Assembly: GCA_012519775.1 (NCBI GenBank)
Contig: JAAYPN010000107.1
Span: 1 to 36,816 of the forward strand
Length of the DNA: 36,816 nucleotides
Reading direction: 5' to 3'
Source: Aeromonadales bacterium
GTDB lineage: Bacteria > Pseudomonadota > Gammaproteobacteria > Enterobacterales > Succinivibrionaceae
Below are positions 25,379 through 32,149 of this stretch, in pieces. A model generated the notes under the pieces. It was not told the origin of the DNA, did not search any database, and saw nothing but the letters and a program-made list of their open reading frames with translations. The first letter of the stretch is position 1; every line of letters begins with the position of its first letter. Made by a program: the position numbers and the translations under genes.

Positions 25379-26701
25379 TTATTTATCAGATAAGAAATAG
25401 GATAAACCTAAAATAGTGCTACCTGTAGGACCTGCACCTAAAAATGGTGATCCGTCAGGCAAATACGCTGATGATAAATCAATATGCACCCATGGGGTAT
25501 TCTTATTCACAAACAGAGACAGGAATGACGCGGCAACACTAGCGCCAGGAGCACCTTCGCCGTGACCTGAGTTGGTGACCTTAGCTCTCCTTGATGAGAG
25601 GAATCTCTGATGATATGGAGAAAGTGGAAGCTGCCAGTACATCTCCTGAGCTTTATCAAATGCCTCTAAAAGTGCTGCTGTGTTTTCCTTTGCAGGAGAT
25701 AAAACACTAAACATATCTCGGCCTACAGCAATCTTTGCAGCTCCAGTTAGTGTCGCCATATCAAGAATAAAGGCTACCTTATCCTCACAGGCTTTGATTA
25801 AACCGTCAGCTAATACAAGTCTTCCTTCGGCATCGGTATTGTTAATCTCAACAGTTACGCCATTCTTGTAAGTAAGAATATCTCCAGGGAGCATACCCTG
25901 ACCTGAAACCATGTTCTCAGAGCAGCAAAGGTATAAACGTACTCTCTTGTTTAAGCCCTGCTCAATGGCTAAAGATAACGCACCGCACAGATATACAACT
26001 GCTGTTTTATCAGTGCGCATTGTCTCCATGTATTTATCAGGTTTTAGTGAGTAACCGCCTGTATCAAAGGTAATGCCTTTTCCAACCATACCAATATCAA
26101 TTGGAGCATCTTTATTTGAATTCTTTGGATAAAAATCAATAATACCCATGCAAGGAGCCTGATTTGAGGCAAAGCCCACGCCATTTAAACCTGCAAATGA
26201 CTCAAATTCCTTGTCACCGCGTTTAATGATTTGAAGAGAAACCTCATCTCCTGTTAGTGCAGCGCTTTCCTTTATCTTTGAAAACAGATTTTCAACCACA
26301 GCTACAGGTGTACTTACTTTTGAATCAGAATCTGCAATCACTCTGAACTCATTAACACGATTAACCCTACGCTCAATGCTCTTTAGAGTTTTATTATCAA
26401 GATCGTATTCAACAGTAAAATCACGTGATAAATCAGATAATGAAATTAAAAACCAGTAAAACTCCTGTGAGTTTAAACAAAATTCACCTAATAACTTAAA
26501 GTTAAATATCTTTAATGATGCAATGGTACGGGCAGCTTTCTGATACCACTTGTAATCAGTTGTATCAACATAAATACTGTACCCCTTATCATTTGGTACA
26601 AATTTTGAGTCTTTATCAAAAGGTGCTGGAACATCACCTTTTAATAGGCTGATATTTACAAGCTCTACTTTTGCCTGATTTAGTGCAAATAACTTAATCA
26701 T
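25379..26701 (-). CDS. pepB: M17 leucyl aminopeptidase family protein, PepB-like
   Basis: 440 aa; VGKGITFDTGGYSLKP, NTDAEGRLVLADGL, LNKRVRLYLCCSENMVSG resembling PepB. Confidence 0.82.
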   Translation of the reverse strand: MIKLFALNQAKVELVNISLLKGDVPAPFDKDSKFVPNDKGYSIYVDTTDYKWYQKAARTIASLKIFNFKLLGEFCLNSQEFYWFLISLSDLSRDFTVEYDLDNKTLKSIERRVNRVNEFRVIADSDSKVSTPVAVVENLFSKIKESAALTGDEVSLQIIKRGDKEFESFAGLNGVGFASNQAPCMGIIDFYPKNSNKDAPIDIGMVGKGITFDTGGYSLKPDKYMETMRTDKTAVVYLCGALSLAIEQGLNKRVRLYLCCSENMVSGQGMLPGDILTYKNGVTVEINNTDAEGRLVLADGLIKACEDKVAFILDMATLTGAAKIAVGRDMFSVLSPAKENTAALLEAFDKAQEMYWQLPLSPYHQRFLSSRRAKVTNSGHGEGAPGASVAASFLSLFVNKNTPWVHIDLSSAYLPDGSPFLGAGPTGSTILGLSYFLSDK

Positions 26702-27881
26702 TTTTCACATTCCACATTGAGCCTGCCTCTACTAGAGCAGGTACTTTTGATGTAATTTCTAAAATTGCTGTTTCAATCTCTTCTTCTGTTGTAAATCTGC
26801 CAAAAGATAAACGGATTGAAGCTCGGGCAGTGTTATCTGATAACCCTACTGCCTTTAGAATATATGATGGTTTTAAATTGGCAGATGAACAGGCTGAACC
26901 TGTTGATGCTGCGATTCCTGAAAGAGTTGGCAACAGCATATGACCGTCGACACCTTCAAAGCTTATAGACAGAATGTTTGGCAGATTATCGGTCTTTGAG
27001 CCGTTTACAATCAGACCAGGTACTTCTTTAATACCGTCTAAAAGACGTGCTCTTAACTTTTCAAAACGTGCCTTGTCGCTTTTTGCCTCTTTTTGCAGAA
27101 TGGCAAAAGCCTCGCCCATACCAGCAACCTCATGTGTAGCAACAGTTCCACCACGTAAACCTTTTTCCTGGCCGCCACCATAAATCTGAGCCTTTAAAGG
27201 AAGAGCTGAGCTTTTCTTTACATATAAAGCGCCTACACCTTTTGGACCACAGACTTTTTCGCAGGTTAAGGACACCATATCAATATCGCTGTTGTCATAA
27301 TCCATCTTTAAATAACCAACACTCTGTGCAACATCGCTATGGAAGATTACATTATGCTTATGACACATTGATGCAATCTCATGAATATCTGAGATGGCAC
27401 CTAAAACAGAGTTTGCCTGAGCGATGGATACTAAAAAGGTATCCTCTGTAATAGCCTTTTCCACGCTATCGCAGGTGATAACACCTTCTTTTGTAGGATC
27501 AAGATAAGTAACCTTAAAGCCTTCCTTTTCTAAAAGCTCACAGGCCTCTAATATGGCTTTATGCTCGATTTTTGAGGTAATAATATGTTTTCTTTTATCG
27601 CCTTTCTCTTTAAGGCCATAAGCAAGACCAAAGATTGCCAGGTTATTACTCTCGGTAGCACCTGAGGTAAAGGTGATTTCAAGTGGACTTGCGCCTACTA
27701 AAGAAGCCACCTGTTCGCGGGCTTTTTCAACAGCCTCGGCAGCTTCCCAGCCATAAACATGATCTTTTGCGTGAGGATTTGCAAAACAGCCACCTAACCT
27801 GAGGCATTTAATCATCACTTCGATGACGCGCTCATCTGTAGGTGTAGCCGCTGCAAAATCAAAATATACAGGTTTTGTCAT
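26694..27881 (-). CDS. Class V aminotransferase, IscS/NifS-like cysteine desulfurase (divergent)
   Basis: 395 aa; TSGATESNNLAI, SKIEHKAILE, STGSACSSANLKPSYILKA active-Cys loop, FGRFTTEEEIE; PLP-lysine motif unusual (CEKVCGPKG). Confidence 0.9.
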   Translation of the reverse strand: MTKPVYFDFAAATPTDERVIEVMIKCLRLGGCFANPHAKDHVYGWEAAEAVEKAREQVASLVGASPLEITFTSGATESNNLAIFGLAYGLKEKGDKRKHIITSKIEHKAILEACELLEKEGFKVTYLDPTKEGVITCDSVEKAITEDTFLVSIAQANSVLGAISDIHEIASMCHKHNVIFHSDVAQSVGYLKMDYDNSDIDMVSLTCEKVCGPKGVGALYVKKSSALPLKAQIYGGGQEKGLRGGTVATHEVAGMGEAFAILQKEAKSDKARFEKLRARLLDGIKEVPGLIVNGSKTDNLPNILSISFEGVDGHMLLPTLSGIAASTGSACSSANLKPSYILKAVGLSDNTARASIRLSFGRFTTEEEIETAILEITSKVPALVEAGSMWNVKND

Positions 27882-27883
27882 TT

Positions 27884-28240
27884 CTATTCTTTAATGTGTG
27901 ATAGTGCAAGAGCAAATACGGACTCAACATGAGCATCGTTTAGGGCATAAAATACTTTTCTGCCTTCACGCTTTACTCTTACTAGTTTGTTAATTCGCAT
28001 GTATGCAAGCTGATGTGACACAGCTGATTTACTTAATTTTACGAGTGCGGAAATATCTGTTACACATAACCACTTATGAAGTAACAGAGCATGCAGGATA
28101 TTAAGCCTTGTAGGATCGGAAAAAGCCTTGAAAAACTCACTCATCACTAAAGCATCATCAGATGCTAACATCTGAGACTTGAGCCCTTCAAGTTGTTGCT
28201 CATCAAGATCGTATGATAATGTGCTATCGAGATTTTCCAT
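27884..28240 (-). CDS. ArsR/SmtB family metalloregulator
   Basis: 118 aa; SDPTRLNILHALL, SKSAVSHQLAYMR wHTH; C-terminal DAHVESVFALALSHIKE fits the alpha5 zinc site DxHx10HxxE. Confidence 0.9.
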   Translation of the reverse strand: MENLDSTLSYDLDEQQLEGLKSQMLASDDALVMSEFFKAFSDPTRLNILHALLLHKWLCVTDISALVKLSKSAVSHQLAYMRINKLVRVKREGRKVFYALNDAHVESVFALALSHIKE

Positions 28241-28280
28241 AACCGCCTTTTACCGCTAATCAGCAAAATTTAGAGAACTA

Positions 28281-29249
28281 CTACTCTAAAGGTTCGATGT
28301 CAGAAGTAAGATTATATTTTTTCTCTATAGCTTTCATCTCAAGATAGGCATTTCTATATTCTAAAAAGCTGTATTTTCTGGTCTGACGGCATAAAGAGAA
28401 ATAATCATAAGCAAGCTTATCTTGCTTATTTTCAAGAGCTAACTTGCCTATGTAGAAATAAGCCTCGCATAGGTGCTCCTGAAACAGATCTGCATCGTTT
28501 TTGTATGAAGCAATATCTTCAAATAATGCATCCTGACTTACATAGCCTAGATACAATTTTACAAGATTGTCGCCCCACTGTTTTTTCTTTACAGAGTTCT
28601 GATAATCATCAAAACGCTCTTTTAAATTTTTTATAGCGACATTTCTGCCGTTTACTGCACTTTCCACAAAGTATAGACACAGCATACGATATGGATCGTA
28701 TTTATCATCATTGTAAAAATAGCTCATATCCTCAAGAGCTAGCTTTTCATGATTGGTGTAATACATGGTAAAAGCTCTGTTTAAGTATGGATATGCAGAA
28801 CTATTGTGAGTATCAAGTTCAATTGCTGCATCAAAGGCATCGCAGGCCTCAGCAATGCGGCCATCTTTTAAGAAATATAAACCAAGTAATTCATATGGTC
28901 TTGAATAACCTGGTTTATTGACAATTGAGTTCATTAGCATAAAACGAGACATGCTTTCTAAGCCTAAATCGTCATACACTGTAGCAATCTGATAGAAAAC
29001 TTCAGATTTTTCTTCAGGGGATTTAGCATCAGAATCTAATACCATCATAAGGTTGATAATCAGTGCCTGTTCTTTTGCTAAAGTTGAATCTGAAGCATGA
29101 GAATAGTAGATGTATTTTTCAGGAACACTTATTGGACCATTCAGTTTTGAGCCTGACGAGCCTTGTAATAATGAGCATCCTGATATTTGCGCTAAGGTAA
29201 AAAGACCCACCCCTAGAGGAAGGAAGTGGGTCTTAATAAAATTAAACAT
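28281..29249 (-). CDS. nlpI: NlpI-like TPR lipoprotein
   Basis: 322 aa; signal peptide ...LFTLAQISGC, TPR motifs (ELLGLYFLKDGRIAEACDAFDAAIELDTHNSSAYPYLNRA). Confidence 0.87.
   Translation of the reverse strand: MFNFIKTHFLPLGVGLFTLAQISGCSLLQGSSGSKLNGPISVPEKYIYYSHASDSTLAKEQALIINLMMVLDSDAKSPEEKSEVFYQIATVYDDLGLESMSRFMLMNSIVNKPGYSRPYELLGLYFLKDGRIAEACDAFDAAIELDTHNSSAYPYLNRAFTMYYTNHEKLALEDMSYFYNDDKYDPYRMLCLYFVESAVNGRNVAIKNLKERFDDYQNSVKKKQWGDNLVKLYLGYVSQDALFEDIASYKNDADLFQEHLCEAYFYIGKLALENKQDKLAYDYFSLCRQTRKYSFLEYRNAYLEMKAIEKKYNLTSDIEPLE
29199..29234 (-). terminator. Intrinsic-terminator-like hairpin inside nlpI 5' codons, just after secF
   Basis: Minus strand: AAGACCCAC-N15-GTGGGTCTT followed by TTTA (five-U run). 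Confidence 0.7.
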
Positions 29250-29260
29250 TATCTATTTTC

Positions 29261-30208
29261 TTAATCCATGGTTTCATAGCCATCAAACTCTTTCTTCTCT
29301 ACCTTCTTTGGAATTAAGCTCTCATAAGAAATACCAAGAATTATAGGCCATGTTGAAGCAACGTAGATTGATGAGAATGTACCAAACACGATACCAACAA
29401 ACAAGGCTAATGAGAAACCATAAATCATCTCACCACCAAAAATCATCAAGCTTACAACGGTAATTAAGGTTGAACCTGATGTAATGATAGTACGAGATAA
29501 GGTCTGAGTGATAGAGATATCAAACACATCAGTAATTGAAGTGCTGCGTGGTAACTTGATTGCGTTTTCACGGATTCTGTCAAATACCACGATCTTATCG
29601 TTCAGTGAGTAACCTACCACGGTTAATACCGCAGCTAGTACTGTCAAGTCATACTCAATCTGTGTAAAGGCAAATACACCCATTACAACAACAACGTCGT
29701 ATGCAAGTGAAATAACAGCACCGGTTGCCATACGCCACTCGAAACGGAATGCCACGTAAATTAGAATAGCAATTAAAGAAACCACGATTGCGATAACACC
29801 GCTTTCTACAAGTTCCTCACCAACTGCTGGACCTACATACTCGGTACGGCTTAACTTAACATCCTTATCAATAGTTCTTGATGCAGCTAATACCTTTTGA
29901 GTTACCTTATCCTGTGTGATACCATCTTTAGGAGCAACTCTCACCATAACTTCTTTTTGAGAACCAAAGTGCTGAATATTACCTACGATGCCCTCTTTAG
30001 CATAAGCCTCTTTAACTTTCTCTAAATCTACACCCTGGGTATATTCTGTTTCAACAACAATACCACCGGTAAAATCCAGACCCCAATTAAGGCCCTTAAA
30101 GCACATAGCGGCAATACAAGCTAAAACTAAGGCGATACATAGACCTTCTACGATCCCCTTAATTCTCATGAAAGGAATGACTGTTCCTTCTTTAATAAAC
30201 TGAATCAT
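29261..30208 (-). CDS. secF: Protein translocase subunit SecF
   Basis: 315 aa; GLDFTGGIVVE..., VGYSLNDKIVVFDRIREN. Confidence 0.97.
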   Translation of the reverse strand: MIQFIKEGTVIPFMRIKGIVEGLCIALVLACIAAMCFKGLNWGLDFTGGIVVETEYTQGVDLEKVKEAYAKEGIVGNIQHFGSQKEVMVRVAPKDGITQDKVTQKVLAASRTIDKDVKLSRTEYVGPAVGEELVESGVIAIVVSLIAILIYVAFRFEWRMATGAVISLAYDVVVVMGVFAFTQIEYDLTVLAAVLTVVGYSLNDKIVVFDRIRENAIKLPRSTSITDVFDISITQTLSRTIITSGSTLITVVSLMIFGGEMIYGFSLALFVGIVFGTFSSIYVASTWPIILGISYESLIPKKVEKKEFDGYETMD

Positions 30209-30217
30209 GTTTTGCTC

Positions 30218-32092
30218 CTAAATACTCAATTTCTTGAGATTACGTCCGCCATATAAAATATTTACCACTGCACGACATGCAGTAATTGAGGTAAACATTG
30301 AGCTTGCCAAACCAATCATCAATACAAGAGCGAAGCCCTTTACAGCACCTGTACCTACCATGAATAGGATTAAAGCTGTAATAAAGGAAGTAATATTTGA
30401 ATCGGCAATGGTTACGAATGATCTTGAGTAACCTTCACTGATAGCGTGCTGAATTGGAAGTCCTAATCTTATTTCTTCACGTATACGCTCGTAAATAAGC
30501 ACGTTAGCATCGACAGCCATACCTAAGGTTAACACGATACCTGCAATACCAGGCAATGTCATAGTTGCACCTGGGATTAAAGACATGATACCAACCAGTA
30601 GAACTAAGTTGAAGAACAGTGCTAGGTTTGCAATTAAACCAAATGACTTGTAGTAGAACACCATGAAAATAGCCAGAAAGCCTACACCGTATGCCATAGC
30701 GCTAAGACCGTTTTCAATATTCTGCTGACCTAATGAAGGACCGATTGTACGCTCTTCAACAATCTGAATAGGAGCAATCAGAGCACCAGCACGTAATAGC
30801 AGTGCAAGATTGTGTGCTTCTTTAGGTGAGCTTAAACCGGTGATTCTGAAGTTGTTACCTAATCTTGACTGAATGGTAGCAACGTTAATCATACGCTCAA
30901 CCTTCTTGAACTTTGGCTTGTAGCCAGGCTCACCTGGTTTTGGAGCGTTAGGATCATCTGATGGGATAACCACGAACTCAATAAAGTTTGTACCCATTGG
31001 CTTACCAATGTTGTCTTTAGTAAAGTTCGACATGATGCTACCACCACGTGAATCTAAGCTGATGTTAACCTGAGGTCTGCCGTTTTCGTCAGAGCTTGAG
31101 CTTGCATCAACGATATGATCACCTGTCAGGATAACCTGCTTTTGAACTACAACAGGGTACCCCTTCTGATCGTTGATAACTTCGGTACCAGCAGGTACGT
31201 GGCCTGCAGCTGCAGCCTGAAGATCTGCTGAAGTATCTACTAGTCTGAACTCTAAGGTTGCAGTAGCACCTAAGATTTCTTTAGCACGAGCTGTATCCTG
31301 AACACCTGGTAATTCAACAACCAGTCTGTCAGCGCCCTGTCTTTGAACCAGAGGTTCTGCAACACCTAATTCGTTAACACGGTTACGGATAATATTGATG
31401 TTCTGATCTACTGCACTTGTACGAACTGCTGATAACTTAGCAGGAGTCATGGTTGCTCTTACGTAGAACTTGTCACCGATATCCTGGGATACAACAGTAA
31501 AGTCTTTTTGCTTATCAGCTAAAACCTTTTGTGCAGCGTCACGGATTGCGCTGTCTTTGAACTCAACAACTACATAATCGTCTTCAGCTCTGATGCCGCT
31601 AAGACGAAGATTGCGATTTCTAAGCTCTGTTCTAAAATCATTTGTTAACTGAGATCTCATCTTCTTCATAGCTTCGTCCATGTCAACTTCCATCAGGAAG
31701 TGAACTCCACCACGAAGATCAAGACCTAGCTTTAATGGGTGCATGCCTAAGTTTCGCATCCACTCAGGAGTAGCAGGTGCTAAGTTTAGAGCAACAATGT
31801 AATTCTCACCTAATGACTTGCTTGCAATTTCTTTTGCAGTTAACTGTTCATCAGTGTTCTTGAATCTGATTAGAAGCTGGCCATTTTCAAAATCATAACT
31901 GCCAGCAATATCTTTTGCATCTAATGATTGTTTAATTGAATCTACAGTCTTCTGATCAAGCTCTGCACCGTGGGTGCCTGAAATCTGTAAAGCAGGATCT
32001 TCACCATAGAGATTTGGGAGTGCACAGAAAAAACCAATGGCGATGATTACAAACACCATGATGTTTTTCCATAAAGGAAATTTGTTTAACAC
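30218..32092 (-). CDS. secD: Protein translocase subunit SecD (start proposed at GTG 32092; track start 32122 is TTG)
   Basis: LKLGLDLRGGVHFLMEVD, GMAVDANVLIYERIREE; start chosen because VLNKFPLWK matches E. coli SecD MLNRYPLWK and has AGGA upstream. Confidence 0.95.
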   Translation of the reverse strand: MLNKFPLWKNIMVFVIIAIGFFCALPNLYGEDPALQISGTHGAELDQKTVDSIKQSLDAKDIAGSYDFENGQLLIRFKNTDEQLTAKEIASKSLGENYIVALNLAPATPEWMRNLGMHPLKLGLDLRGGVHFLMEVDMDEAMKKMRSQLTNDFRTELRNRNLRLSGIRAEDDYVVVEFKDSAIRDAAQKVLADKQKDFTVVSQDIGDKFYVRATMTPAKLSAVRTSAVDQNINIIRNRVNELGVAEPLVQRQGADRLVVELPGVQDTARAKEILGATATLEFRLVDTSADLQAAAAGHVPAGTEVINDQKGYPVVVQKQVILTGDHIVDASSSSDENGRPQVNISLDSRGGSIMSNFTKDNIGKPMGTNFIEFVVIPSDDPNAPKPGEPGYKPKFKKVERMINVATIQSRLGNNFRITGLSSPKEAHNLALLLRAGALIAPIQIVEERTIGPSLGQQNIENGLSAMAYGVGFLAIFMVFYYKSFGLIANLALFFNLVLLVGIMSLIPGATMTLPGIAGIVLTLGMAVDANVLIYERIREEIRLGLPIQHAISEGYSRSFVTIADSNITSFITALILFMVGTGAVKGFALVLMIGLASSMFTSITACRAVVNILYGGRNLKKLSI

Positions 32093-32112: not shown

Positions 32113-32149
32113 TTATAAACAAAGCGACTTAAAGTCGCTTTGTTTATAA
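32113..32149. other. Perfect long dyad (hairpin) between yajC and secD
   Basis: TTATAAACAAAGCGACTT-A-AAGTCGCTTTGTTTATAA, perfect 18-bp arms. Confidence 0.85.

Follow-up and report, generated by a model that had tools for sequence, protein, structure and literature searches.

A hairpin in the signal-peptide codons of nlpI, the lipoprotein gene that follows secF, is probably the intrinsic terminator of the secDF unit, a leaky one that would impose a fixed step-down in expression from secDF to nlpI-arsR-iscS-pepA. The same DNA encodes a secretion signal and, judging from comparative sequence analysis, very probably limits the output of the downstream genes. The element was studied in a stretch of 36,816 nt, hereafter the window, and across the family to which the source genome belongs.

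In the window, secF (29261..30208, minus strand; TIGR00966, 300.8 bits), with a stop codon ending at 29261, is followed by nlpI (28281..29249, minus strand), which starts 11 nt past the end of secF as the earlier note on this DNA had reported, and by arsR-iscS (26694..28240, minus strand; positions from the ORF list). The nlpI product is NlpI-like, matching NCBIfam PRK11189 at 201.9 bits (E 1.5e-59) without reaching the model cut-off of 250, and the presence of a MFNFIKTHFLPLGVGLFTLAQISGC lipobox bears out the claim that the codons in question are those of a true lipoprotein signal. Codons 6-17 read AAGACCCAC-N15-GTGGGTCTTTTTA, shortly 3' of the secF stop, and include AAG ACC CAC ... GTG GGT CTT TTT; the reverse-strand reading across the element is ATGTTTAATTTTATT AAGACCCAC TTCCTTCCTCTAGGG GTGGGTCTT TTTACC. 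The 5' arm (AAGACCCAC, codons 6-8, K T H; 29226..29234, minus strand) and the 3' arm (GTGGGTCTT, codons 14-16, V G L; 29202..29210, minus strand) form a perfect 9-bp stem with five G-C pairs, enclosing a 15-nt loop (TTCCTTCCTCTAGGG; 29211..29225, minus strand) with three further pairs inside, and the hairpin has a dG of -17.8. Directly 3' of the drawn stem lies the T-rich tail TTTTACCTT (tail score 3.34). Both the 9-bp stem and the five-T run originally described are present (TTTTT, 29199..29203, minus strand), but two of the Ts are paired within the stem and only three unpaired Ts follow it.

The hairpin spans +16 to +48 of nlpI, with the first base of its stem approximately 25 nt beyond the secF stop, the customary spacing for this terminator. 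Folding of the surrounding 71-nt region gave -20.1 kcal/mol (z -3.0), and 3 of 200 shuffles did equally well. A simple hairpin scan with an 8-nt loop limit did not detect this 15-nt-loop element, and an Rfam search of positions 28000-30500 gave no RNA family matches up to E=1. A terminator on the plus strand was rejected, the inverted repeat having no T-run on that strand. Also rejected was a miscalled nlpI start, with the real one 3' of the hairpin: the sole in-frame start codon inside or after the hairpin stands 11 codons ahead of the Cys, so that the lipobox would keep at most 11 codons. Because the lipobox requires it, the nlpI start codon must precede the hairpin.

To place the element within its operon, junctions between neighboring genes were compared among species. 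Terminator-like hairpins (score <= -14) were found at the yajC/secD junction in 23 of 25 species, and terminators at secF/nlpI in 23 of 26, while none occurred at secD/secF (0/26) or arsR/iscS (0/19); the remaining junctions had them in 1 of 23 (iscS/pepA), 3 of 24 (nlpI/arsR) and 5 of 12 species (pepA/cobB). Since they are regular only at yajC/secD and secF/nlpI, the secF/nlpI element delimits the secDF unit at its 3' end, and putative terminators bound that unit on both sides. Median gaps at these two junctions were 36 nt and 17 nt, respectively. In the window, the yajC-secD hairpin (17 bp; 32113..32149, minus strand) fills most of the 36-nt gap, and no terminator-like hairpin was found at the junctions among nlpI, arsR, iscS, and pepA.

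We gathered nlpI loci from the whole family, where most genera retain nlpI next to secF; a contig scan for relatives gave OMZC01000092 (hRUG862). Of 40 SecDF loci, 38 had a terminator-like hairpin 18 to 66 nt past the secF stop, whatever gene followed, including two (L078 and L079) where the terminator is present though the neighbor is not nlpI. In 23 species from five genera the hairpin was embedded in the nlpI signal codons, with 10 to 16 pairs and a T-rich tail, 20 to 57 nt past the secF stop, and in all 23 the nlpI start codon lay upstream of it. The embedded arms differ widely, including AGACCCAC, AGTCCTAT, AGCCCCG, AAACCCGTTTC, AGGCTCA, AGGCCGA, AAGGCAGGAAC, and GGCCCGCGGCG. Genera in which nlpI begins 90 to 280 nt past secF carry an ordinary intergenic terminator 18 to 38 nt past secF, as does one species of the embedded clade (L051). 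Among ten equal-length cases, both sides had changed at six of nine pairs and 96.7% of cells were paired, a percentage inflated by the picking of rows as hairpin-formers. The covariation score, calculated over species that are not phylogenetically independent, was 0.509 versus 0.195 for shuffled rows (0/500) and 0.06 to 0.15 for slid controls. There was little freedom of choice in these rows, because 8 of the 10 cases start at the same nlpI codons (from +16). With its arms covarying, its position at the boundary, and neighboring junctions mostly free of such hairpins, the terminator-like element proposed for the end of secDF was upheld.

In a tree built from SecD+SecF, the embedded species were all contained in one well-supported clade of 28, made up of the 23 embedded species, three with intergenic terminators (L051 among them), and two without a recognizable terminator; the label required far fewer changes on this tree than shuffled labels did. 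Signal peptides were longer in embedded species, with a median of 24 codons to the Cys versus 19 (p=2e-5), which suggests that the start codon shifted upstream over the terminator as the gap shrank. The secF terminator is not essential, since L041 and L065 have lost a recognizable one. Just 3' of secF, L065 has a strong GGCGGG..CCCGCC hairpin without a T-rich tail, possibly a decaying embedded terminator, and in L041 the T-rich sequence is kept and the stem is gone.

Signal-peptide coding might by itself generate such structures, with the AAA/AAG of a Lys-rich n-region complementing the TTT/CTT of a Phe/Leu-rich h-region in the absence of any selection. Such complementarity leads one to expect some hairpin bias in signal ORFs, and in a complete relative, sampled at 35%, 5.2% of signal-like ORFs scored <= -14 versus 1.7% of others. 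In genus g4, moreover, means of the synonymous-codon null were high, with p values of 0.09 to 0.39 in four of five species. However, the bias, about threefold, is far too small to account for the comparative evidence. The same null gave p<=0.027 in 17 of the 22 embedded species whose start was correctly placed, and none of 300 random synonymous recodings of the window's own peptide reached the observed score (p=0.003, the lowest value the test can give). Within a sample of the source genome (G000), the hairpin had the top terminator score among 162 ORF 5' ends, and 1 of 2049 ORF-internal windows scored as high. Control genes at the same loci had the element in 0 to 4 of 16 to 26 species, compared with 20 of 25 for nlpI, and control nlpI genes away from secF had no such hairpin. 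Together with the compensatory changes across genera and the intergenic homologs, these results make a coding by-product exceedingly improbable; the pattern to be expected of one is instead displayed by lspA (below). Chance or a coding artifact was rejected on the codon nulls, covariation, and control genes, and we consider the structure and conservation of the secF/nlpI hairpin well established.

In the arrangement we favor, nlpI would have moved so near secF that its start codon came to precede the terminator and its signal codons to traverse it. Most polymerases completing secF would halt approximately 55 nt into nlpI, and the fraction reading through would yield the nlpI-arsR-iscS-pepA message, leaving nlpI dependent on read-through. 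A partial terminator is favored because the gaps at yajC/secD and secF/nlpI leave no room for a promoter between hairpin and gene, because the secF 3' end shows no outstanding promoter signal, and because embedded T-tails are weaker, as expected were read-through needed (median tail score 2.70 versus 3.53 for intergenic terminators, Mann-Whitney p=1e-4, the species being phylogenetically nonindependent). Coding constraint alone could also weaken an embedded tail; the tails at rseB (below) are strong although coding. An effect on the ratio of secDF to nlpI-arsR-iscS-pepA is plausible, since the element is terminator-like, conserved, and placed at the secDF boundary, and the junctions from nlpI to pepA are free of terminator-like hairpins in the window. 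A predicted cost is that terminated mRNAs would hold the nlpI start but no stop. In previous work, upstream-gene expression fell by about half when such truncated messages had a start codon, an effect attributed to non-stop mRNA decay; in the same study, terminators less than 100 bp from a start codon functioned and maximal termination needed more than ~27 nt between stop codon and terminator (PMC4824070).

A promoter for nlpI within the secF 3' end, with the secDF terminator serving as its attenuator, would have precedents in ampC/frd and nlpD1-penA (PMC6045580), and a TTGACA-17-TACTTT motif lies 115 nt ahead of the secF stop in most of genus g4 and in L059. Nevertheless, our promoter search found none beating shuffled sequence in the window or in most g1 species, and the secF 3' end has no excess synonymous conservation, such that we regard this arrangement as quite improbable. 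The motif, shared within secF by L048, L049, L052, L059, and L069 (p 0.01 to 0.09 versus shuffles), is either coding sequence or an nlpI promoter in those species. A promoter in the secF 3' end was accordingly set aside as unsupported in g1, the g4 motif being weak and perhaps coding.

With its first base at nt 16 of nlpI, the hairpin would be invaded by every elongating ribosome, and the frame traverses the terminator in all 23 embedded species. Ribosomes reinitiating on nlpI could then melt the hairpin and nlpI translation decide read-through, as in pyrBI, whose pyrL terminator is suppressed by ribosomes in E. coli (PMC5021804). We consider this unlikely. An E. coli construct with its terminator 30 bp past the AUG and ~48 bp past the upstream stop lost only ~10% efficiency to translation, blocking translation shifting termination by only that amount, because the ribosome seldom reaches RNA polymerase within the first 100 bp (PMC4824070). 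Furthermore, nlpI has no evident Shine-Dalgarno sequence in the window, and related genera hold the same hairpin at untranslated intergenic positions, which argues that its primary role is independent of nlpI translation. The evidence is better matched by a terminator that is leaky, or modestly modulated by translation, than by a translation switch; an nlpI ribosome close behind the polymerase might modestly raise read-through.

Action on the nlpI mRNA rather than on transcription is very unlikely. A stable hairpin at this position could slow initiation or block RNase, and processing can create 3' ends within ORFs (PMC7815308), so a barrier or a processed end might be envisaged. Against this, the stem is followed by a T-rich tail in nearly every species, and other lineages, whose hairpin precedes the nlpI start, have a still better T-tail.

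Embedding was not confined to nlpI. Directly after rseA, rseB carries a comparable hairpin in its signal codons (e.g., AAAACCGC...GCGGTTTT plus a T-run), ~26 to 64 nt past the rseA stop. Of the 27 species inspected across the family (L172-L198), most have this element, with other arms in some species (AGCAAG/CTTGCT and TGCAGGTAG/CTATCTGCA). The names RseA and RseB are best profile matches below curated cut-offs, combined with gene order. The rseB of the source genome (L180; G000:C44:23574-24494, minus strand) gave a codon-null p of 0.003, and in one species (L183) the rseA/rseB terminator is intergenic, not embedded. Further embedded candidates were sought by a partial scan of the complete relative. 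An uncharacterized exported protein was dropped, its hairpin not being conserved, as was lspA (L202-L209), where a first-codon hairpin occurs in near relatives only, is absent further away, shows little compensatory change, and is probably a side effect of protein conservation. Embedding is therefore recurrent, rseB sharing the arrangement, and not general, these two candidates having failed the conservation test. Rather unlikely is an extension in which signal-codon terminators are a recurrent regulatory device of the family, read-through at secF/nlpI and rseA/rseB being set by early translation of the nascent signal peptide or by its targeting to the membrane, so that envelope-gene dosage is coupled to the capacity for translation or secretion.

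The secF/nlpI element is natural, long-conserved DNA that appears to double as RNA terminator and signal-peptide codons, both roles being kept by compensatory change, and its evolutionary series from intergenic to embedded to lost offers material on terminators inside reading frames and on gene ratios in compact operons. Such unit boundaries will escape gene finders and terminator predictors that leave coding sequence out. Our literature search found no paper combining nlpI, secF, and a terminator, and the closest systems each share part of the arrangement. The ampC attenuator precedes the ampC reading frame. As at the E. coli frd terminator, which is that attenuator, and at B. pseudomallei nlpD1-penA, the terminator of an upstream unit would limit a downstream gene (PMC6045580); unlike ampC, whose promoter sits in the last frd gene, no promoter was found at secF/nlpI and the terminator lies within signal codons. 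Similar to pyrBI/pyrL, an ORF extends across an intrinsic terminator open to melting by a ribosome (PMC5021804, PMC4824070), but pyrL encodes a leader peptide with pause-controlled coupling, whereas nlpI would itself be the regulated gene. The geometry is near-identical to that of the synthetic plasmid W48 (Li et al. 2015), 30 bp past the AUG and ~48 bp past the upstream stop; in contrast to that engineered construct, the secF/nlpI element is natural, conserved, and signal-peptide coding. Finally, ORF-internal 3' ends and internal operon terminators likewise tune expression through within-operon termination (Adams et al. 2021, PMC7815308; PMC10450193); those 3' ends were mapped on RNA, whereas the secF/nlpI element was recognized by comparative sequence, with apparent dual coding at two operons.
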